The translations under genes were made by a program, and so were the position numbers. A stretch of DNA of 64,000 bases, from positions 1-64,000 of the forward strand of contig JAFZQO010000007.1 in assembly GCA_017620335.1 (NCBI GenBank). Direction: 5' to 3'. Numbering within the stretch: the first letter of the stretch is position 1; each line of letters opens with the position of its first letter. This document shows positions 13,279 to 36,459 of the stretch, piece after piece. Below the pieces are notes generated by a model. That model did not search any database, was not told the origin of the DNA, and saw only the letters and a list, made by a program, of their open reading frames with translations. Source of the DNA: Bacteroidales bacterium (GTDB lineage: Bacteria > Bacteroidota > Bacteroidia > Bacteroidales > UBA932).

Positions 13279-13352
13279 GGTGCCTGGGCCGGGAGGTTAG
13301 GCACTGGTCTGCAAAACCAGGTAGAGCGGTTCAATTCCGCTAGGCACCTCCA
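13279..13352 (+). tRNA. tRNA-Cys (anticodon GCA)
   Basis: A full cloverleaf folds by hand: acceptor GGTGCCT with AGGCACC, anticodon stem CTGGT/ACCAG enclosing loop CTGCAAA (anticodon GCA), and T stem AGCGG/CCGCT around TTCAATT. The discriminator is U, as expected for tRNA-Cys. The last 15 bases before the 3' end (13336-13350) are repeated at 36445-36459, so this is the integration target. With the element inserted the 3' end reads TCCA, an encoded CCA; the displaced chromosomal copy reads TCGGA instead. Confidence 0.96.
13336..13350. other. attL core
   Basis: The 15 bases TCCGCTAGGCACCTC span the T-arm end and acceptor 3' strand of tRNA-Cys and recur exactly at 36445-36459. Confidence 0.9.
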
Positions 13353-20201: not shown

Positions 20202-20278
20202 TTGTCCACTTTGTCCACATCATCCACGGCGGCTACTTTGGTCGCTGCCGTGGACACGTGGACGCAATCCCGAGAGCA

Positions 20279-23538: not shown

Positions 23539-24731
23539 TGAGACTGAAAGATTTAGTAACAGTGCGCAACATTAAGACAGACCGAACGGATCTGCCTTAC
23601 ATCGCGCTGGAGAATATCGTCAGCTGGGATGGCAGTTTTATTCCAACTGAGATTCAATCCGAGGGAACAAATGCTCGTTATTTCGCAGGTGATGTCCTCT
23701 TCGGGAAGCTTCGTCCATATTTAGCCAAAGCATACATTCCTGACAATGATGGAATTTGTTCTACTGAGTTCTTGGTGATGAAGCCTAAGAAAGCACTCAA
23801 CAACAAATTCCTTGAGTATTACTTGTTATCGCCGGATTTCATTGGATACATCAGGAATCAGGTTGCCGGTGTTAAGATGCCGCGCACTAACTGGACAGAG
23901 ATTGGGAATCTCACTGTTGCTTTCCCAGAGAGAAAAGAACAAGATGCCATTGTAGCATACTTGGATCAACAAATCAATCTGATAAATAAGCGTATATGCC
24001 TTAGAGAAAGAGAGTTACAAACTCTATTTAAGCTAAAGCATTCGGAAATTAATTTCGTTGTCACCCGTGGCCTCAATCCCATTGTTCCAATGAAAGACAG
24101 CGGTATTCCATGGATTGGTCAAATTCCATCCCACTGGGAGATACGTAGGATAAAAGATGTTGCTTCTGTAAACGCAAGAACTCTACCAGATACAACTGAC
24201 AAGTCATATAGATTCCGCTACATAGATATTAGTAGCGTCTCTTCAGAAGGTCATATAGCGTTGAGTGATGAAATGGAATTCCTTAATGCACCATCTCGAG
24301 CTCGTAGGATTGTGCGTCGGGATGATGTGATTGTTTCTACTGTCAGGACATATTTACGCGCCATAGCACATATTGGTTGGGAGGCAAAGGATGTGATTGC
24401 TTCGACCGGATTTGCAGTCATTACCCCGAATGAAATCAATCCAGTTTATCTTTCTTTCCTCATGCCAAGTGCTACGATGGTAGATGAAATCTGTCGACAA
24501 TCCACAGGTGTGAGTTATCCCGCTACGACTGCGTACAATATTGCTGCTCTACCAATACCTTATCCACCAATAGAAGAGCAAAAGGATATTGCGAAGTATT
24601 TATCAGAAAGAATTAGCCAGATAGGGGCTGTAGTTAAAAATATAAATGAACAGATTGAGAAGTTAAAACTACTGAAGAAAGCCCTTTTAAACGAGATTAT
24701 TACAGGGCGTAGGACAATAGTAAGCATATGA
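23538..24731 (+). CDS. hsdS: Type I restriction-modification system, specificity subunit
   Basis: A DNA-recognition subunit of 397 residues with two target-recognition domains, each followed by a conserved helix. The first (about 1-145) ends in FPERKEQDAIVAYLDQQINLI; the second begins KDSGIPWIGQIPSHWEIRRI near residue 186 and ends IPYPPIEEQKDIAKYLSERI. It fixes the two halves of the target site for methylation and cutting. Reading overlaps hsdM and hsdR by four bases at each end. Base composition is more AT-rich than hsdM, as usual for recombining hsdS genes. Confidence 0.93.
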   Translation: MRLKDLVTVRNIKTDRTDLPYIALENIVSWDGSFIPTEIQSEGTNARYFAGDVLFGKLRPYLAKAYIPDNDGICSTEFLVMKPKKALNNKFLEYYLLSPDFIGYIRNQVAGVKMPRTNWTEIGNLTVAFPERKEQDAIVAYLDQQINLINKRICLRERELQTLFKLKHSEINFVVTRGLNPIVPMKDSGIPWIGQIPSHWEIRRIKDVASVNARTLPDTTDKSYRFRYIDISSVSSEGHIALSDEMEFLNAPSRARRIVRRDDVIVSTVRTYLRAIAHIGWEAKDVIASTGFAVITPNEINPVYLSFLMPSATMVDEICRQSTGVSYPATTAYNIAALPIPYPPIEEQKDIAKYLSERISQIGAVVKNINEQIEKLKLLKKALLNEIITGRRTIVSI

Positions 24732-27700
24732 TAGAGAAAAATATACAGAGCGCCTACATAATGGATTTCCTATGTCGCCGTCAGGATGGCTTGGGATACC
24801 GTGAAGTGAAATGCAACACAGTAAACAATGATCTTTTCATCCCTGCAGACTTGCTGGAATTCGTGAAGATGAACTCACAGCGTGCTTGGAAAAACCTCGT
24901 TAAGAAAAACGAAGGTGATGAAGGTCTGGCCCTCACCCGGTTGATGGAAGAGATTAAGGCTCGTCTGAAAGATGCCACCAACGTGGCTATCTTCCTTAAC
25001 CGGAACAAGACGATTACCTTGCAGGGCGAATCCCTCCAGATTATCTATGTATCCGGCTCAGAACTCCGCGGTGACGAAGATTTCAAGAAGAACATCTTCT
25101 CTGCCTCCGAGGAAGTAAGTTACACGTTCATGATGGGCGACCGCAGAATCTTCACCATCCGCCCGGACATCTCCTTCTTTGTCAATGGTATCTTCCTCGG
25201 CTACCTCGAACTTAAGAGCCCCTTCAATGGTCAGTCAGCAGCAAAAGACGGCCGTGGCAAAGTCATCACAGATTATATGGAGGCTGTCCAGGAATATGCT
25301 GCTCTTGCCGGTCAGAACGACGAATCCCAGGCCCTCCGCCGGGAAATGCTCCGCATCTTCGAGAACTCGATCCATCTTGTAGCCACCGACATCAACGAGA
25401 CATACGTCCTTCGTAACGTCGGAATGTTCTGCGACGAACTCCGTAAAGGCTTCTCCGACCACACCCTATCGATGACCGAGAAGAAATGTGAAATCGAGAA
25501 GACATTCAAGATTTATCCGGTCAGGAATGCTGATGCCCCCGAAAAAGAACGCTTCGAAGAAGTCATGCGGGCGCTCTACAGCAAACCTATGATTGAGAAG
25601 GAAATCCTCTACTATAACTTCCTTCAGTACGAACTGGAAAAGCGTGGTAAGAAGAAAGAGCGCAAGAGCAACCGTGGCCGCCTGATTAGTCCGCGTCCAA
25701 AGCAGAAGTTCGGCTGCGATAAGATTATGGACCGCATCCAGGAATTCTTGGAGCACGAGAAAGAGCCCAACTACTTCCTGGACAAACTCCGTAAGGACAT
25801 GCTCGATATGGGAGTTGCTCCGGAGAAAGCCGAAGAGATTGTGGCCAAGCGAGATGCTTACTGCAACAATAAATACGTCTACTCTCTTCTGCTTCAGTAC
25901 GCCGCTGGTTTCGGAAAATCCAACATCATCGGCTGGACAGCCCTGCAGTTGAAAGACCTTCGCTATAACGGCAAATGGGTATATGACAAGATTCTCCTGG
26001 TGGTAGACCGTCTCCAGCTTCGAGACCAGTTGGACACGATGATGACCAATATGAACATCGACAAAGCGATGTTCACGGAGGCCAAGGACACACCTTCCTT
26101 CATCAAAGCCCTGCAGGATAAGAAGCGCATCATCGTCGTGAACATCCAGAAGTTCGACGATATGAAAGCCGCCATCGAAAAGGCCAATGTGACGCTGAAG
26201 ACAATGCGCGTTGCCTTCCTCATCGATGAGATCCACCGCAGCAATACCGGCGTTTCCCACGAGGAAATGATGAGCATCTTCGACCAGTTGCAGGATACCT
26301 TTGATGAAAGCGCTGGCACCCTCCTCTCCGGCAAGGGCAAGAAGAATCTCATAGTTGGTTTCACAGCGACACCCAGTGAAAAGGTCCTGGCCCGTTTCGG
26401 TGAGCTCAAGAAGAGCACCAACATAGACCCCATCTGGATTCCGTTCGATAGTTACTCTATGAAGGAAGCCATCCGGGATGGCTATATTCTTGACCCTACA
26501 AAGCACATCATAGCCGTACCGGCCAAGATGTACTTCGAGCTCCCTGACGGCGTTTTACGGGCCATAGAGGCTGGCACAGAGGCACAGAAATACGGTCTTA
26601 AGAAAGACCACGTTTACGAGAACCGGGACCGTATGAAAGCCATTTCCTCCTTCATCGTCAACCGCCTTCTAAACCTGGTCTATACCAAGATTCACGGTAC
26701 CGGCAAAGCAATGCTGGCCGTGACATCCATCCCCATTGCCATCGAGTATTGTAAACTCATACGGAGGATGATGGCGGAAAAGACCAAGCAGCCTCGCTAC
26801 GCCCGCTATGCAGATGCGCCAGTGTCCATTGTCTACAGCGACAATCAGGACTATCCTGCCAGCAAGACCATGAATGCCGGTGTACCCGAGGAAAAGGTCA
26901 TTGCTAACTTTAAATCAGCAAAGAATGGCATCATCATAGTCGTGGACAAACTCCAGACTGGTTTCGATGAGCCCAAACTGCACACTCTCTTCCTGGACAA
27001 GGAGATTCATGACATCAATGCCATCCAGACAATCTCCCGCGTGGACCGCGTTTGCAAATACAAGGAAGAGTGTCATATCGTGGACTTCTCCTTCAACAAC
27101 GAAAACGTCCAGAATATCCAACAGGCTTTCTTGAAGTATAGTGATATAGTCGTCAGCGACTTCAACGCTCAGGCTGAACTTGCTCTTATCGAGGAGGCTT
27201 TCCGCCAGCTCTGCTCTCACGAACTCTACTTAAAATGGTTCCATAAATATATAGCCAGCAAGAAGAATCCCGAGCAGAATACCTTGGTCACAATGGATAT
27301 GGTCCAGGACTTCCGGTCCTGGATCAGGGCTGCCATCAAGCGTTATCAGCTCTTTATGCAGTCTCAGCCCGAAGCCTCACAGCATAATGTCACTTCCGGT
27401 GATGACGCCGTAGCTAGCGAAGAACTCGACGGCGCCGATGATGCAAAGAAGCTTCGTCTGATAATTGGCGGTTACACATCTGGGCTCAACAATCTGGACG
27501 GAGTCCTCGAATGCAAGCCAATCTACAAGAACGAAGACATTCTGGACTTTTGGCGTCGATACTGCGAGATTTATAGAGACGAAACTGCTAAAGATGAGTC
27601 TTCCAACTCTATTCTAGTGGAGTATGACGGTAGCATCGGCCTCACCGTTGATCCCGAACTCGAAGAGCCTCAAGGGGCCGATTCTGGAGAAGGTGGAGAT

Positions 27701-28957
27701 GAAGAAGGTGGCGGAGGCAAGAAACGGAAAAGCATTAAGACTAGTTCTGGAATAGTCAATGTTCTAGAAATGATAGATCGCCTAAATAGTCAGGCTGAAG
27801 ACAAAGCTGAAGAAGTTGAATTCTGGTATGGAGTCATACAGACCTTCTTCGCCTTCCTTAAAGAAGACGGTAGCTTCGTTGCAATGATAACAGATGAACG
27901 CAACCGCTTCGACCGTGCTGAAATCCAACGCGACTACGCTGCCCTCACCCGTAGATTTAAGCGTCAGCACCAGAATGATCATGAACTTCTGGTCAAGTTT
28001 ATTAATGAGAATACCGAGTACCTCTTCGATGCCTTCATCGAGTATCTCGATAACCCGGAAGCCTTAAGCCAGCCAATCGAGATTGATGATAGTGTAGAGA
28101 CCAATGATTTAGCGCAATCTAAAAATAGTGCTTCACCTCAGCCATGTAATCCCACAAAATCGATGTCTTGTATGGCGCCAGATGGTTATATGAAGGCAAT
28201 TTCCATTAGACAGCCATGGGCATCTTTAATTATGAAGGGTATAAAAGATGTCGAGAACAGGACATTTAAGGCGACTCACATCCCTTCCACAGTCCTCATT
28301 CATACTGGGGTATCTGTTGAGAAAGGAAGTATCGATGAACTTTGTAATAGTGTGTGGGTGCAGGGTATAAAAACCATGAATGGGATAATAATGGGTAATA
28401 TCCCGGACTTTATGGAAATGCCCAGATCTGCCATTTTGGGTTACGCAACAATTGTTGACTGTACTCAGAATTATCCTTCTGATTGGGCAGCACCTGGCTG
28501 CTATAATTGGGTAATAAAGGATGTTTATGAGTTTGACAAACCGATACTGGGAGCTAAAGGGCAACTCGGATTCTTTAACTATCCTCTTGATCCTAACGAC
28601 CTTCCCCCGGCACACAAAGCTGAGCCGAAGGTGCCCACTATTAAGGGTAACACATTATTCTTCCCACTTTCAGCAAAGGTCTACAGCACTTTGAAGCAAG
28701 GAGAAGTGTTTGCCCTTGAATCCACTGACGAACTCATTGAGATTCTCTGTCCCGATCCTACCCGGCCAATTGCAGCCCCTTTGGAAACAATTACGGTATC
28801 TAGCCTACTTGGCCAGAAATCCTTCAAACTGAACGGCATCGAATTCATTGCTCAAACCGACGAAGAAACCAATGCCCCTCGGACCTACCGTACCTATGAC
28901 GGCACAGAGATGAACTACTACCGCATATTCTTCCACATAGGGGAAGAAATCGCATAA
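24728..28957 (+). CDS. hsdR: Type I restriction enzyme HsdR with C-terminal ASCH domain fusion
   Basis: Translocating nuclease subunit of 1409 residues. The nuclease core shows YLELKSPFNGQ near residue 160 (PD-(D/E)xK type). The helicase has P-loop AGFGKSNI near 394, the DEIHRSN Walker B near 500 and later SF2 motifs (TISRVDRV). From residue 1155 the frame reads MKAISIRQPWASLIMKGIKD and VENRTF, then TVLIHTG and KGQLGFFNY near 1275: an intact ASCH domain, a PUA-like fold related to modified-base and RNA readers. About 110 unassigned residues follow. The linker (around 1120-1154) is low in conserved features, as if a separate ASCH gene was joined in frame. Confidence 0.9.
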   Translation: MIEKNIQSAYIMDFLCRRQDGLGYREVKCNTVNNDLFIPADLLEFVKMNSQRAWKNLVKKNEGDEGLALTRLMEEIKARLKDATNVAIFLNRNKTITLQGESLQIIYVSGSELRGDEDFKKNIFSASEEVSYTFMMGDRRIFTIRPDISFFVNGIFLGYLELKSPFNGQSAAKDGRGKVITDYMEAVQEYAALAGQNDESQALRREMLRIFENSIHLVATDINETYVLRNVGMFCDELRKGFSDHTLSMTEKKCEIEKTFKIYPVRNADAPEKERFEEVMRALYSKPMIEKEILYYNFLQYELEKRGKKKERKSNRGRLISPRPKQKFGCDKIMDRIQEFLEHEKEPNYFLDKLRKDMLDMGVAPEKAEEIVAKRDAYCNNKYVYSLLLQYAAGFGKSNIIGWTALQLKDLRYNGKWVYDKILLVVDRLQLRDQLDTMMTNMNIDKAMFTEAKDTPSFIKALQDKKRIIVVNIQKFDDMKAAIEKANVTLKTMRVAFLIDEIHRSNTGVSHEEMMSIFDQLQDTFDESAGTLLSGKGKKNLIVGFTATPSEKVLARFGELKKSTNIDPIWIPFDSYSMKEAIRDGYILDPTKHIIAVPAKMYFELPDGVLRAIEAGTEAQKYGLKKDHVYENRDRMKAISSFIVNRLLNLVYTKIHGTGKAMLAVTSIPIAIEYCKLIRRMMAEKTKQPRYARYADAPVSIVYSDNQDYPASKTMNAGVPEEKVIANFKSAKNGIIIVVDKLQTGFDEPKLHTLFLDKEIHDINAIQTISRVDRVCKYKEECHIVDFSFNNENVQNIQQAFLKYSDIVVSDFNAQAELALIEEAFRQLCSHELYLKWFHKYIASKKNPEQNTLVTMDMVQDFRSWIRAAIKRYQLFMQSQPEASQHNVTSGDDAVASEELDGADDAKKLRLIIGGYTSGLNNLDGVLECKPIYKNEDILDFWRRYCEIYRDETAKDESSNSILVEYDGSIGLTVDPELEEPQGADSGEGGDEEGGGGKKRKSIKTSSGIVNVLEMIDRLNSQAEDKAEEVEFWYGVIQTFFAFLKEDGSFVAMITDERNRFDRAEIQRDYAALTRRFKRQHQNDHELLVKFINENTEYLFDAFIEYLDNPEALSQPIEIDDSVETNDLAQSKNSASPQPCNPTKSMSCMAPDGYMKAISIRQPWASLIMKGIKDVENRTFKATHIPSTVLIHTGVSVEKGSIDELCNSVWVQGIKTMNGIIMGNIPDFMEMPRSAILGYATIVDCTQNYPSDWAAPGCYNWVIKDVYEFDKPILGAKGQLGFFNYPLDPNDLPPAHKAEPKVPTIKGNTLFFPLSAKVYSTLKQGEVFALESTDELIEILCPDPTRPIAAPLETITVSSLLGQKSFKLNGIEFIAQTDEETNAPRTYRTYDGTEMNYYRIFFHIGEEIA

Positions 28958-29596: not shown

Positions 29597-30055
29597 TCAC
29601 CAGGAATCGAAATCCGTTAGATTCTCCACAGCGCCGCACACAAGGCACTGCGCATTGACGGTAGTTCCGAGTAGTGTGGGGCAAAAGAAGACTCTCACGA
29701 ATTCACCGGCGGAGCCGCTCTTCCCATGTTTTCTGTGTTCTTCAACGAATTTGTGCAAACGCTCGTCCTCGACCTTATTCAATGAGAAGGTCGTTGTTCC
29801 AAGATCTTCTTGTTCCTGTTCCCACCAGAAATGAAGGAGACAGTCGATTCTCTCGCTTTTCAAGGTGATGTAGAAGTCGCGATCCCCGCCATAGTAGTGT
29901 CCTTCGAAGCCAGGTCCGGTAAGCTCTAGTTTCTTTGCATCCAAGAAGGCGTATGCCTCCTTATAGGAATCAAAACTCTTGACGATCTCTACAGACCGGC
30001 AGTAATCACGTCGGCCAATACGGCCATTCGTTTCTTTCTTTACGATGATTCGCAT
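29597..30055 (-). CDS. Hypothetical accessory protein behind leader copy 1
   Basis: A protein of 152 residues from ATG 30055 (MRIIVKKETNGR). An ATG at 30088 in the same frame would add MRMFNIKNKSA, but those bases are part of a repeat shared with another gene, so they are more likely leader. The protein looks soluble with mixed helices and strands (SFDSYKEAYAFLDAKKLEL, DRDFYITLKSERIDCLLHF) and ends with two Cys (QCLVCGAVENL). I do not recognise the family. Placement beside an R-M system and a second leader-bearing gene suggests host-defence or conversion cargo. Confidence 0.6.
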   Translation of the reverse strand: MRIIVKKETNGRIGRRDYCRSVEIVKSFDSYKEAYAFLDAKKLELTGPGFEGHYYGGDRDFYITLKSERIDCLLHFWWEQEQEDLGTTTFSLNKVEDERLHKFVEEHRKHGKSGSAGEFVRVFFCPTLLGTTVNAQCLVCGAVENLTDFDSW

Positions 30056-30057
30056 AG

Positions 30058-30195
30058 CAGATTTGTTTTTGATATTGAACATCCGCATCACTTTACCACC
30101 GTGGCATCTGGCTTGCTCGGTTGGCGCTCCTCCGGGGAGACTCTTGATGCATGTGCAAATGTATGAATTATAATAGACTATTCCAACATAACTTG
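30058..30195 (-). repeat. Promoter-leader repeat, copy 1
   Basis: 138 bases that recur at 31127-31262 with about 95% identity, both upstream of leftward genes. Within it are a -33 TTG (plus-strand CAA at 30184-30186), 20 bases spacing, and a TACATTTG -7 box (minus strand, 30156-30163). The roughly 95-base leader that follows holds a CTCC/GGAG hairpin and in-frame ATG codons at 30088 and 30082 before the gene start at 30055. Reading rightward it also encodes the start of a small frame at 30163. Confidence 0.75.
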
Positions 30196-31122: not shown

Positions 31123-31126
31123 AGAA

Positions 31127-31262
31127 CAGATTTGTTTTTGATTGAACATCCGCATCACTTTACCACCGTGGCATCTGGCTTGCTCGGTTGGTGCTCCTCA
31201 AGGGAGACTCTTGATGCACGTGCAAAAGTATGAAATATAATAGACTATTCCAACATAACTTG
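31127..31262 (-). repeat. Promoter-leader repeat, copy 2
   Basis: Second copy of the promoter-leader at 30058. The -33 TTG (plus CAA 31251-31253) and TACTTTTG -7 box (31223-31230) keep the 20-base spacing. A two-base deletion inside the leader is offset by two extra bases just before the gene, so the MRMFN-like frame stays open into the gene in both copies. Substitutions fall in the hairpin loop and next to the -7 box. Confidence 0.75.
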
Positions 31263-31270
31263 TCCACTCT

Positions 31271-31313
31271 GTCCATCATGTCCGCCCCGTCTACCGTGGA
31301 CGGGATGATGGAC
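31271..31313. repeat. 15-bp hairpin ahead of the small gene and RNA region
   Basis: Arms GTCCATCAT (31271-31279) and ATGATGGAC (31305-31313) enclose a second stem CCCGTC/GACGGG with loop TACCGTG. No T-run follows, so it is not a plain terminator. Bases 31314-31390 hold no other feature I can support. Confidence 0.6.
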
Positions 31314-31390
31314 GTTCAGTTTACGCTTTTGACACTTCCGCTATTATATGTTAAGGGCGATATTGCCCGAAACGTTAAATCACTAGAATT

Positions 31391-31501
31391 ATGGCAAACG
31401 TCAAGTTTACCCAACAGCCCAGGCAAAGGTATCCTGGAGACCGCAAATCAAAGAATGAGGACGCCCCCAAGACGGATAACAAGAAGTCAAAGGGGAAGTA
31501 G
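31391..31501 (+). CDS. Small basic protein upstream of the RNA region
   Basis: A 36-residue frame, MANVKFTQQPRQRYPGD ending KKSKGK, rich in Lys, Arg, Gln and Asp with no hydrophobic core, like small RNA- or DNA-binding peptides. It ends at the exact point where the dense stem region begins (first stem 31515), so the two may be on one transcript. No homolog is known to me. It could be a true small protein that partners the RNA, or a chance frame; its composition is the only internal support. Confidence 0.45.
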   Translation: MANVKFTQQPRQRYPGDRKSKNEDAPKTDNKKSKGK

Positions 31502-32767
31502 CGGGAATCGGTAGGCCGCTGGGGAAATGGGGACAGATGGTGCCCGGCTCCAGCGGCAGTGCCGATGCCGGCGTCCTTATCTAAAGCGGTACTCGCTCGT
31601 CTGGTCGGCGGAGCCTCCCAGACCAGCGACCTTCTATGCCGCCCTTCGCTGTGAGACTGTGACCGGTCAAGCCAGCCACAGACTCACTGACGCCCTCCCC
31701 GCAGATAATACTGATGCGGTCACGGTCAGCAGTCGGTCGTTCCGCTCGCTAACGTTCGCTCCACAACCTCCCGCTCACCGTGTCTGGTCTGTGCCCTCCC
31801 GGCCTCCCACAGGGAGGAGGATATCGCCCGGGAGAGGTCGTGCCGGCGCGGGCGGCGGCGCCCTGATTCCACGAACATAACATAATCCCATCGGGATTGT
31901 GTAACAGGCTGGGATGAGCCCAGCCTGTTTCCGCTCCGCACACAATCCGGATTATGTTAAGTTCGCTCCGTCAGTGAGTTACGTGTGTTTGTCCTTCGGA
32001 CTCCCGGGCGAGTCGGCGGCAGGGGAGCGGCCCCCCTCAGGGACCTCCGGCCTCCAGGCCCGTCGTGGGGCCGCGCACTTCCCGGATGCTTCCTCTGGGC
32101 GGTATAGGGTCACGAGCGTCGCTCCGGCCGTCGTCTCTTCGCGCTGCGCGCTCGAGACCACGGCCTCCGCTGCTCACTTCGTATCAGAGTTCAGTTGTGA
32201 GCGAGGGCGGGAAGTGCCGCCACGAGGAGCGTTTGTGCGTTGCGCTTGACGATGCCCGCATTGAGTTTCCGGAGCGACGCGAGCATCCTGCCGCCTCAGG
32301 CAGCTCCGCTGCTGGGTCGCGTCCACTCCGGATGTCAGCCGGCGTCCGGAGTCCGCCGGCTCACATCCTCCGCTCCCGCTCCTCGGTACGGCTTCGCCGT
32401 GGTTTTTATGGACCGGGAAGGCCGTCTGGCTTCCCTGCGCCGGTGGTCTCCTTCGCTTCGCCGTCGAGCCCGTGTCCGGTCTCGCCGATGCTCCGCTCCG
32501 GAGCCCCCCGGCCCCGCTCGCCAGACCGCCTTCCCGGTCACGCTCCGCTTCGCTCCGCGTCCTGTAGTCCTGGCAGACTCACAGATGCCGGCCGCACCCG
32601 GCGAGCCGGCACCGGCACCTGTGAGACTGCCAGCACCACAGGCTTTTTTGTTCTGTATCGGTCCGCCGTCGGATGCGGTGAAAGCATCCTGCCTCCGGAC
32701 GATTTGATGCACTGGATTTATACACATATCCAGTGAGAGCAGCGGCTGCCGCCGCTACTCTTTTTTT
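31502..32767 (+). ncRNA. Candidate large ornate non-coding RNA
   Basis: About 1.26 kb, very GC-rich, without a convincing coding frame on either strand. Stems found by hand, in order: 31515-31522/31550-31557; 31597-31606/31621-31629; 31651-31661/31677-31687; a three-tier arm 31872-31888/31949-31965, 31894-31902/31940-31948, 31903-31913/31919-31929; a domain 32064-32224 enclosing 32126-32137/32154-32165; 32276-32282/32317-32323; 32330-32344/32354-32368; 32411-32430/32520-32539 (19 of 20 paired); 32570-32584/32619-32633 extended inward by six pairs; 32710-32717/32728-32735; then a terminator with seven Ts. The terminator fixes the transcribed strand. It resembles GOLLD- and ROOL-type RNAs of phages in size and style, not in any sequence I recall. 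The promoter and 5' end are uncertain. Confidence 0.6.
32736..32767 (+). terminator. Intrinsic terminator ending the RNA region
   Basis: Stem AGAG-c-AGCGGC (32736-32746) with GCCGCT-a-CTCT (32751-32761), loop TGCC, followed by TTTTTTT. A clear rightward rho-independent terminator. Confidence 0.85.
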
Positions 32768-32858
32768 GACCGATCGTAGGTTTTTGAGTAACTTTGCTGC
32801 TGGGCGCGATTCCTCCCAACTACTTCATAATTACCTATCATCCCAAAACTTATGACTT

Positions 32859-33557
32859 ATGACACAGCTTCGCCCCAACATTCTTATCAGTGACGCCTAC
32901 GGTTCTGCGGGGGATGTCACGGCCTATCACAGGGGAGGGAAATGTTTCCTTCGGAAAAGGATCACTCCGGTCTATGCTGGCACCGTGTGTCAGCAGGCGT
33001 CGATGTCCGTGCATCTGCGGGCGCTGCAGGCCTGGCGGTCGCTGTCGCACGAGGAGCAGCTGCGCTGGGCGCCGTATGCGGAGCGGGTGGAGCCTCACCG
33101 GCCGCCGTTCGACCACAAGGCCCGTATCTCCGGCAACAATCTTTTCATCTCGGCATATCACGGGTTCGCGACGCTGGGGCGCGAGCACATCCCGGAGCCT
33201 CAGCCCTTCGAGGCGTTCCCGATGTTCCTGGTCGGTATCCTAGGAGCGTCGGCCGCGAATGGCACCCTGACCATCCGGCTGCGCCTGGAGGCGGAAGATC
33301 ACGCCGGCCGGTACCGGCTCCTCGCCAAGATCCAGCTCTCCCGTCCAGGCTCCGGCCGCAATCCCGGTGCCATGCGCAACTACCTCGCGTCCGGCACCGC
33401 GAACGACCCCTTCGTCACCGTTCTCATCCCCGACTACACATCCGTCTGGAGCCTCGACCTCCCGTCCTACCAGCTCCACTCCCGCTGCATCCTCCTGGAT
33501 ACGAAAACCGGATACCGCAGTCAGTTCCTCGCAGTATCCGGCATTGTGAGCTTGTAA
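32859..33557 (+). CDS. Element protein, DUF6266-like N-terminal domain (paralog 3 of 3)
   Basis: A protein of 232 residues, on the plus strand and far from its two relatives in the leftward operon. The shared segment is clear: NILISDAYGSAGDVTAYHR, GGKCFLRKRITPVYAGT, a W-x2-L-x3-Q-x2-W segment (AWRSLSHEEQLRWAPYAE), then FDHKARISGNNLFISAYHG. The C-terminal half (GTLTIRLRLEAEDHAGRY, VWSLDLPSYQL) is a single beta-sandwich-like unit. It begins about 90 bases after the RNA terminator. Function unknown; the three copies suggest a family whose C-terminal parts diverge while the N-terminal part is kept. Confidence 0.62.
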   Translation: MTQLRPNILISDAYGSAGDVTAYHRGGKCFLRKRITPVYAGTVCQQASMSVHLRALQAWRSLSHEEQLRWAPYAERVEPHRPPFDHKARISGNNLFISAYHGFATLGREHIPEPQPFEAFPMFLVGILGASAANGTLTIRLRLEAEDHAGRYRLLAKIQLSRPGSGRNPGAMRNYLASGTANDPFVTVLIPDYTSVWSLDLPSYQLHSRCILLDTKTGYRSQFLAVSGIVSL

Positions 33558-33560
33558 GGT

Positions 33561-34766
33561 TTAGAATCCTTCCTTCAGGAATTTCCTCAGCGAAAGATGT
33601 GTGATGCCGTTCTCGTCTCTCTGCGTCAAAAGCGGCGTGGCGCTGATGACATATTTGGGATGATTATCCTTTATCTTTTCCAGCGGCCCAAATTCACGCT
33701 GACGTGTTGATTCATCTGAGATGATGTAGCTTACTTGTACATACACAGTCTTTCCAGGTTTTGTACAAACGAAATCGACCTCTCCAGCATTTAGCACGCC
33801 TACGTGGACCTCATACCCAAGGAAACAAAGCTGCTTATAGACGGCATTCTCGATGACTTTCTCAATGTAGGAGTCCATTCCGCCTTCGGCCTTAAGATTT
33901 CTAAGACCAAGGTCATCCCAATAGACTTTCTCATTGGACTCAAAGAGTCTCTTACCGTGGATATCATAGCGAGATACGACGTCAATTAGATATGCTTCTG
34001 CGTAGAATCCTCTATACAGAAGAATCAGGTTGGAGGAAACGTTTTCTTCCTGAGATTTCATGTACTTGGAGATGCTGTTGGCAGAAGTCAATTTACCGGT
34101 GGTGTCGGCATAGAAGGCAATGAGGTTATTCAGGAACGGGATATTGCGGATATCATGACGTTCAATGATATCCTTCAGCATAATGGTGTTGAAGACACTG
34201 GTCAAATAGGCCCATACCTGCTCGTCGCTACCCAGGCCCACTTTCCGCAGACCGGGAAGGCCACCATAATTCAGATAGGTCATCAGGCTCTCATCATTGT
34301 CCGGGAGGTTATGGAACTGCAGAAATTCAGAATAGCACAGGGGATGAACCCGTACTTCCACATGGCGGCCGGAAAGGAGAGTGGCCAGCTCTCCGGAGAG
34401 CATCTTGGAATTGCTACCGGTGATGATGACATCGGTATTATCTTCCGTATACCAGTTACAGACACTTTCTTCAAACTGCTCAATCTCCTGGGCTTCGTCA
34501 ATGAGAATGCAGTTGTGTTTGCCCTGGATGAAGCGAGCCTCAATCCATGCGTCCAGATCATCCTTGGTCTTGATTTTCTTGAAGGCTTTTTTCTCCTTGT
34601 CGATGAAGATGATGTTTATATCCGGTTCATCTTTGTGTCGCTGGATGAAGTCTTTAAGGACATAGCTCTTGCCTACACGGCGAGATCCCACGAGTGCGAT
34701 GATGTTTCCTTTCCCTATCCAGGAATCAACGATATCTGCGTAATGCTGTCTAGTCAATACTTCCAT
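33561..34766 (-). CDS. ATP-binding protein, AAA_14 plus DUF4143
   Basis: A protein of 401 residues of the archaeal-type ATPase group common in Bacteroidales. The Walker A GSRRVGKSYVLKDF is near residue 27, Walker B CILIDEAQEIEQFE near 90, and IITGSNSKML the sensor strand. The C-terminal DUF4143 region carries EVDFVCTKPGKTVYVQVSYI, with the PD-(D/E)xK-like layout of this domain. Often found as single genes and linked to unknown regulatory or toxin-like roles. An operator-like palindrome overlaps its promoter (34803-34826). It converges with paralog 3. Confidence 0.85.
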   Translation of the reverse strand: MEVLTRQHYADIVDSWIGKGNIIALVGSRRVGKSYVLKDFIQRHKDEPDINIIFIDKEKKAFKKIKTKDDLDAWIEARFIQGKHNCILIDEAQEIEQFEESVCNWYTEDNTDVIITGSNSKMLSGELATLLSGRHVEVRVHPLCYSEFLQFHNLPDNDESLMTYLNYGGLPGLRKVGLGSDEQVWAYLTSVFNTIMLKDIIERHDIRNIPFLNNLIAFYADTTGKLTSANSISKYMKSQEENVSSNLILLYRGFYAEAYLIDVVSRYDIHGKRLFESNEKVYWDDLGLRNLKAEGGMDSYIEKVIENAVYKQLCFLGYEVHVGVLNAGEVDFVCTKPGKTVYVQVSYIISDESTRQREFGPLEKIKDNHPKYVISATPLLTQRDENGITHLSLRKFLKEGF

Positions 34767-36444: not shown

Positions 36445-36459
36445 TCCGCTAGGCACCTC
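36445..36459. other. attR core
   Basis: Exact 15-base copy of the tRNA-Cys 3' end at 13336-13350, marking the right boundary. After it the bases read GGAATC, the displaced chromosomal flank. Confidence 0.9.

Follow-up and report, generated by a model that had tools for sequence, protein, structure and literature searches.

A conserved kilobase-scale fold, possibly a large structured RNA, in putative integrative phage-like elements of rumen-type Bacteroidales

ROOL, GOLLD and OLE are large structured RNAs of bacteria, and the first two are encoded in prophages and phages (PMC12286853). The locus reported here is a block at positions 31502–32767 of the window, the whole 64,000-nucleotide stretch of Bacteroidales DNA that was analyzed. 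Like ROOL, which comes from prophages and phages, the block is large, multi-branched and apparently noncoding; unlike ROOL, it has no Rfam match, shows prominent GNA/GNNA loops, is linked to a protein gene and is found almost entirely in a single Bacteroidales genus. With GOLLD, many members of which exceed 800 nt and are prophage-borne, it shares the combination of a conserved part and a variable part, but it differs from GOLLD in lacking an Rfam match and in having its structured strand opposite the neighboring promoter in most copies. OLE RNA has a dedicated partner protein, and the block can likewise be read as a large structured RNA with a candidate partner, the protein A232 encoded beside it; unlike OLE, it is without an Rfam match, and the putative partner belongs to no annotated family. 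Any resemblance of the block to these three RNAs in how it works would be at most one of analogy.

Single-stranded DNA provides further comparisons. In the intergenic region of filamentous single-stranded DNA phages and in single-strand origins, several hairpins on one strand constitute origin and packaging signals; these are a few hundred bases long, and in the element that carries the block no rolling-circle gene was recognized among the proteins scanned. When GNA or GNNA loops cap G-C stems, the resulting DNA mini-hairpins are hyper-stable, with a melting temperature of up to 78 °C for GCGAAGC (PMC4686876; PMC6479982). The block has loops of the same classes with G-C closing pairs, but the mini-hairpins described in those papers are short and designed or synthetic, whereas the loops of the block cap a kilobase fold.

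Models for HEARO and group II introns are included in Rfam. A first-pass annotation of the window had named GOLLD, ROOL, OLE and HEARO as the families to check; when this was done on the window's block with Rfam 15 at gathering thresholds, no match was obtained. A permissive search of 31200–32900 (E up to 10) returned five matches, none of them to GOLLD, ROOL, OLE, HEARO or a group II intron, and the best, sbrA, reached 27 bits, its threshold being 45. With no Rfam match to ROOL, GOLLD, OLE, HEARO or group II introns, these known RNA families were rejected for the block, and a literature search that covered part of the literature returned no description of such a block. A large covarying structure with no match in Rfam 15 at the gathering thresholds joins the few known kilobase-scale folds, and this one is common in its genus (51 of 200 genomes).

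Host element, neighboring protein and distribution

The block lies inside a 23.1-kb integrated element at tRNA-Cys. Its placement within a Bacteroidales mobile element, suggested by the first-pass annotation, is upheld by att-like repeats at 13336–13350 and 36445–36459, and a 31-base repeat sits immediately inside both element ends. The main features outside the block are as follows.

13336–13350, plus strand: attL, at the 3′ end of tRNA-Cys (TCCGCTAGGCACCTC)
32859–33557, plus strand: A232, a conserved protein gene adjoining the block, 232 aa
34892–36292, minus strand: tyrosine integrase of the element, at its right end
36445–36459, plus strand: attR, the identical 15 bases

The amidase of the element is an endolysin by PHROGs and separately matches Amidase_3, and two small proteins resemble a holin and a spanin, with no family match. 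The element also carries a primase/helicase-like protein, a DUF6371 protein and a type I restriction system. Packaging-type matches were weak (terminase small subunit, E = 0.004 and 0.04; head protease, E = 0.02) and fell on a helix-turn-helix protein, the helicase-like protein and the integrase, with no others among the proteins scanned; no rolling-circle or relaxase family was matched among the element proteins scanned either. The element, with its endolysin and integrase, may or may not be a satellite, as the first-pass annotation had called it. The window's 228-, 246- and 349-aa proteins were scanned with PHROGs and NCBIfam, two of them with PADLOC, and relatives in the locus L088 with Pfam. 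A minimal 4.5-kb element with the block at its left end was also considered, and only chance-like repeats of 9–11 bases were found in the six loci tried.

Several other components of the mobile element deserve mention. Two SAM-I/IV riboswitches lie on the minus strand at 30055–30155 and 31124–31222; their leaders share exact direct repeats of 51 bp and 27 bp and precede different genes, one of which encodes an N-formylglutamate amidohydrolase. The type I restriction subunit at 24728–28957 has a weak C-terminal ASCH-like match (E = 0.017, under the Pfam cut-off). Between A232 and the integrase, an AAA_14/DUF4143 ATPase gene occupies 33561–34766 on the minus strand and matches the candidate defense family PDC-S01 (E = 4 × 10⁻¹²⁶).

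A232 lies within 1.5 kb of the block and in the same direction in 28 of the 35 copies with room to see it; in four of the remaining seven, an A232 match is located 2.9–5 kb away on the other strand. Comparison across copies shows the predicted A232 gene to be linked to the block, and as such a frequent neighbor A232 is a partner that can be tested directly. An alignment of 25 A232 sequences, including that of the window, contains 33 invariant columns, and the protein is weakly similar to two further element proteins, of 228 aa (E = 6 × 10⁻⁶) and 349 aa (E = 1.5 × 10⁻⁵). Searches of Pfam, PHROGs, NCBIfam and PADLOC assigned A232 to no family, and its best match in the PDB (E = 0.18) was not convincing. 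A resemblance of A232 and its paralogs to DUF6266 was considered and rejected: Pfam support was absent both for A232 and for the L088 paralogs, and the part of the literature that was searched contained no mention of this domain. In five copies (L236, which is an IMG/VR contig, L073, L083, L084 and L085), A232 is reversed relative to the block, so that the structured strand would there be downstream of A232 in its own direction.

When 200 genomes of the genus were searched by blastn, 51 proved to hold homologs of the block, about 1.2–1.6 kb in length. A covariance model built on the AT-rich domain matched 35 of 200 genus genomes and three of 393 genomes of the order, namely the block's own genome, one further genome of the genus and one from another family. 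The core pattern of the block was present in 36 stretches of named genomes, of which 35 are labeled Bacteroidales or Bacteroidia and the other is labeled Desulfovibrio; rumen, omasum or abomasum samples or RUG isolates (RUG denoting rumen genomes) are named in many of the labels. A search of IMG/VR for the core pattern yielded one contig. The block had no blastn match in phage and plasmid records, and A232 and the 246-aa protein had no tblastn match in phage records. Within the genomes searched, comparison of sequence matches shows an occurrence nearly limited to one Bacteroidales genus, the relatives being largely metagenome-assembled and many copies ending at contig breaks.

In the contig labeled Desulfovibrio sp. 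(L125), the block is identical over the aligned part to that of a Bacteroidales locus (L138), and the contig is probably mis-binned. Five copies (L071, L097, L098, L103 and L104) contain only the left part of the block, within window positions 31514–31957, on a contig that continues far beyond it, and no right-only copies were seen. These left-only copies are placed among other genes, one of which, beside the L098 block, we take to be similar to mnmE. Such one-sided shortening (five copies versus none) is only suggestive of a retro-element.

A conserved multi-branched fold

The GC content of the block is 65%, versus 51% for the whole element, and the block is far more strongly folded than dinucleotide shuffles of it (z = −8.4 for the plus strand and −11.3 for the minus strand; 100 shuffles). 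The stems named in the first-pass annotation were found, including 32411–32430/32520–32539 with 19 of its 20 positions paired; the arm at 31872–31965 is present with inner tiers, and the closed domain at 32064–32224 corresponds to the helix 32075–32085/32207–32217. A further stem, 32561–32591/32612–32642, is 31 nt long with 87% complementarity.

The block looks noncoding. Among 14,538 short gaps in pairs of homologs, which are not independent of each other, 12.9% are divisible by three; on these gap lengths a protein-coding block was rejected, in agreement with the earlier view that no coding frame is credible. Stop-free stretches across the block are long (median 204 codons on the plus strand and 141 on the minus strand), as expected in GC-rich DNA. 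A basic frame of 36 codons, also pointed out earlier, was rejected as a small gene: a search of 40 loci gave no convincing relative next to the block, and the best match (E = 0.079) lay elsewhere.

Homologs were aligned with MAFFT, which is not structure-aware. After 31 duplicate, short or cut loci had been dropped, 46 rows were aligned; removal of near-duplicates and fragments (L086, L090, L094, L109, L117, L125 and L132) then gave a 39-row set, used for covariation, strand cells, loops, gaps and T-run counts, and nine divergent loci were added for a 48-row covariation alignment. Because the consensus structures were computed by RNAalifold on the same alignments as were tested, slid and simulated controls were used.

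When structure pairs were tested in the 48 aligned copies, 82 of 290 minus-strand consensus pairs covaried (E < 0.05), compared with 9–18 pairs when partners were slid by 1–3 columns and 0–1 in each of 15 tree-simulated alignments. The covariation check on aligned homologs from a nucleotide search, proposed earlier for a many-stemmed ornate structure, was thus strongly positive. At least four changes on each side were seen at 126 consensus pairs, and on average 90% of consensus pairs formed over the 48 rows, as against 40% when slid. In a stricter test, run over every column pair of the 39-row set, 36 pairs were significant, and 12 of these were canonical in 80% or more. Divergent copies retained the fold: among the 15 of the 48 rows that were listed, seven are 52–58% identical to the window, and five of these form 86–92% of pairs, with the partial rows L194 and L185 at 81% and 75%. 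In the same listed set, rows below 50% identity form 61–76% of pairs (37–45% when slid), and six fuller rows of 52–60% identity have 32–46 pairs in which both bases differ from those of the window and pairing is kept. Covariation extends to the long-range helices 32015–32024/32286–32295 (four pairs), 32075–32085/32207–32217 (three) and 31824–31834/32001–32011 (three). Comparison of the homologs shows a conserved, predicted multi-branched single-strand fold with long-range helices, and such extensive covarying secondary structure is of the kind that characterizes large ornate noncoding RNAs. The parts of the fold are listed below.

31502–32767, minus strand: conserved folded block (homologs 51/200; 82/290 pairs covary; wobble origins 157:61)
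31651–31687, minus strand: hairpin close to the left end (2/14 pairs covary)
31824–32011, minus strand: domain holding the AT-rich arm, closed by 31824–31834/32001–32011 (3/10 pairs covary)
31871–31966, minus strand: two-tier arm, rich in AT (TTAACATAATCCGGATTGTGT...), where conservation is highest (19 pairs; 608/608 cells pair in the 32 rows used, which were selected for length); near-invariant, with double changes at 3 pairs
32015–32295, minus strand: long-range helix 32015–32024/32286–32295 around the central domain (4/10 pairs covary)
32027–32074, minus strand: GC-rich arm in which both sides are replaced wholesale and in concert (two helices, with 9 covarying pairs)
32075–32217, minus strand: helix 32075–32085/32207–32217 closing the variable domain (3/11 pairs covary)
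32300–32312, minus strand: hairpin with a loop of mainly GGA or GAA (CGGAG 23, CGAAG 9, CTGTG 4 of 39 rows)
32315–32382, minus strand: arm with the densest covariation, inner helix 32325–32346/32352–32373 (14/17 pairs covary)
32388–32400, minus strand: hairpin with a C-GNA-G triloop in which all four N occur (CGAAG 19, CGTAG 6, CGGAG 3, CGCAG 1 of 39 rows)
32411–32539, minus strand: long helix 32411–32430/32520–32539 with inner helices (4/18 outer-helix pairs covary)
32561–32642, minus strand: 27-pair helix with a variable tip and a conserved tandem U-G/G-U motif (13 covarying pairs; double changes at 18/27 pairs; UG 25/34, GU 29/34)
32739–32758, minus strand: terminal hairpin with a C-GNNA-G loop, read as a terminator on the plus strand (loop and T-run counts are given below)

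The functional strand

An A-C mismatch on the plus strand is a G-U pair on the minus strand. When helices were predicted for both strands with G-U disallowed, the wobble-type cells in the plus reading comprised 196 A-C and 75 G-T. Counted as independent origins on the tree, A-C outnumbered G-T by 157 to 61 (p = 6 × 10⁻¹¹), and by wobble origins 18 of the 27 helices were minus-type and seven plus-type. The same procedure, applied to RNase P of 30 genus genomes, gave 62 G-T versus 16 A-C origins on its true strand. When G-U was allowed, the consensus energy was −572 for the minus strand and −521 for the plus strand, and wobble made up 3.6–5.1% of variable pairs on the minus strand versus 1.0–1.2% on the plus strand. 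Taken together, the wobble origins, the RNase P control and the consensus energy indicate that function most likely resides on the minus strand. The first-pass annotation had read the structure on the plus strand, a choice supported neither by the origins (61:157 against plus) nor by the energy, which is better on minus.

RNA or single-stranded DNA

Our preferred reading, to which we assign a probability of roughly one half, is that the minus strand of the block encodes a large, structured noncoding RNA of about 1.2–1.6 kb, representing a new family that integrative phage-like elements carry in rumen-type Bacteroidales. The minus strand would be made as RNA, presumably when the element is active, and the RNA may work as a scaffold or as a ribonucleoprotein with A232 in element propagation, as ornate phage RNAs may act. 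Tandem U-G/G-U is a common RNA motif. The RNA reading is favored by prior expectation, by the precedent of large structured RNAs in phages and prophages (PMC12286853), by the covariation, by this motif, by minus-strand wobble above the wrong-strand level and by GNRA tetraloops, of which the minus strand has 12 versus 2.8 by chance. Several findings argue against it: wobble in the block reaches 0.4–0.7 of the level in RNase P (7.5%) and tmRNA (8.3%; 22 of 30 loci used); the conserved unpaired minus-strand bases are G 59, A 30, T 27 and C 15, whereas those of RNase P are A-rich (A 47, G 28, T 10, C 8); and seven of the 27 helices have more plus-type wobble origins. The covarying fold keeps the original RNA proposal plausible, but a number of its loops resemble those of DNA mini-hairpins, and Bacteroidetes-type promoters pointing into the block are no commoner than chance (0/42 on the minus strand of the right flank, with 0.8 expected; 1/29 on the plus strand of the left flank, with 0.35 expected).

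A strong alternative, which we regard as less likely, is that the minus strand is exposed as single-stranded DNA in replication, transfer or packaging, and that the fold is an origin, packaging or processing signal, perhaps bound by A232. Part of the evidence for it comes from the loops. Over 39 copies, which are homologous and not independent, GNA triloops number 99 on the minus strand versus 4.8 in shuffled sequence (10 versus 3.4 on the plus strand), and each of the 39 copies has at least one on the minus strand. In six of 26 consensus hairpins, most rows have a GNA triloop or a C-GNNA-G tetraloop, with G and A kept while N varies (CGAAG/CGTAG/CGGAG/CGCAG; CGGCAG/CGCCAG/CGTCAG/CGTTAG). In the terminal hairpin, 22 of the 28 GNNA rows listed have C or T as the third base of the loop, which is not GNRA. 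Of the nine hairpins of RNase P, by comparison, two have a GNRA loop in every one of the 30 rows, and GNA triloops predominate in none; four T-GCA-A triloops occur. The corresponding bias in flanking DNA is weak (351 kb; GNA/TNC in 25 of 151 triloops versus 9 of 93 in one shuffle). Against this reading, GNRA loops are likewise above chance, and the tandem U-G/G-U is better explained by RNA.

The flanks of the block also bear on the single-stranded DNA reading. Ahead of the next gene lies the following site.

32765–32796, plus strand: promoter-like site TTTG-N20-TAACTTTG (Bacteroidetes consensus)

This arrangement fits the Bacteroidetes promoter consensus. Promoter-like sites at the block point outward, on the plus strand of the right flank in 18 of 42 copies (1.9 expected) and on the minus strand of the left flank in 10 of 29 (1.1 expected), although these flank counts, made with the Bacteroidetes-type consensus alone, include near-duplicates and related loci. 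Repeats of RG[CT]CGATR are enriched by the left end (1.6 per locus versus 0.14 in background), with at least two in 11 of 21 loci, but the window's own copy has none within 220 nt of its left end. No rolling-circle or relaxase family is among the proteins scanned, and we know of no natural single-stranded DNA fold of such size. Tentatively, then, a kilobase-scale single-stranded DNA fold with several arms capped by hyper-stable GNA/GNNA hairpins, working with A232 in replication, transfer or packaging, might be the equivalent in natural DNA of giant ornate RNAs; if the fold is DNA, natural DNA would be able to carry an ornate conserved fold.

Both the preferred minus-strand RNA and the single-stranded DNA fold place the function on the minus strand. 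A plus-strand RNA ending at a hairpin near 32767, as the first-pass annotation proposed, is very improbable. The hairpin and T-run of the proposed terminator (32736–32767) are indeed present on the plus strand of the window, and G-T cells exceed A-C cells in the AT-rich arm (9:0) and in its closing helix 31824–31834/32001–32011 (11:4). However, while the hairpin at 32739–32758 is conserved, a T-run follows it in just 7 of 34 copies, wobble origins run 61:157 against this strand, and a promoter-like site leads into the block from the left in just 1 of 29 copies. A conserved plus-strand intrinsic terminator was ruled out on the same T-run count, and the run in the window overlaps the promoter-like site, containing the TTTG box that points at the A232 gene. 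Palindromic DNA homogenized by hairpin-mediated recombination or template switching, with no folded function, would account for hairpin modules swapped wholesale among copies and for five left-only copies with no right-only ones, but it has only a slim chance of being correct given a covarying long-range helix over 280 nt and a strand asymmetry of wobble and loops that is unexpected under strand-symmetric palindrome repair.

A separate repeat was noted at the left side of the block. At least two TGTCCAC repeats stand directly left of it in 6 of 21 copies (L069, L070, L076, L114, L129 and L140), whereas the window's copy has none within 220 nt on that side. Similar TGTCCA repeats occur elsewhere in the window, at 20203–20260, near the end of the helicase-like gene, and at 31261–31277, about 240 nt left of the block.
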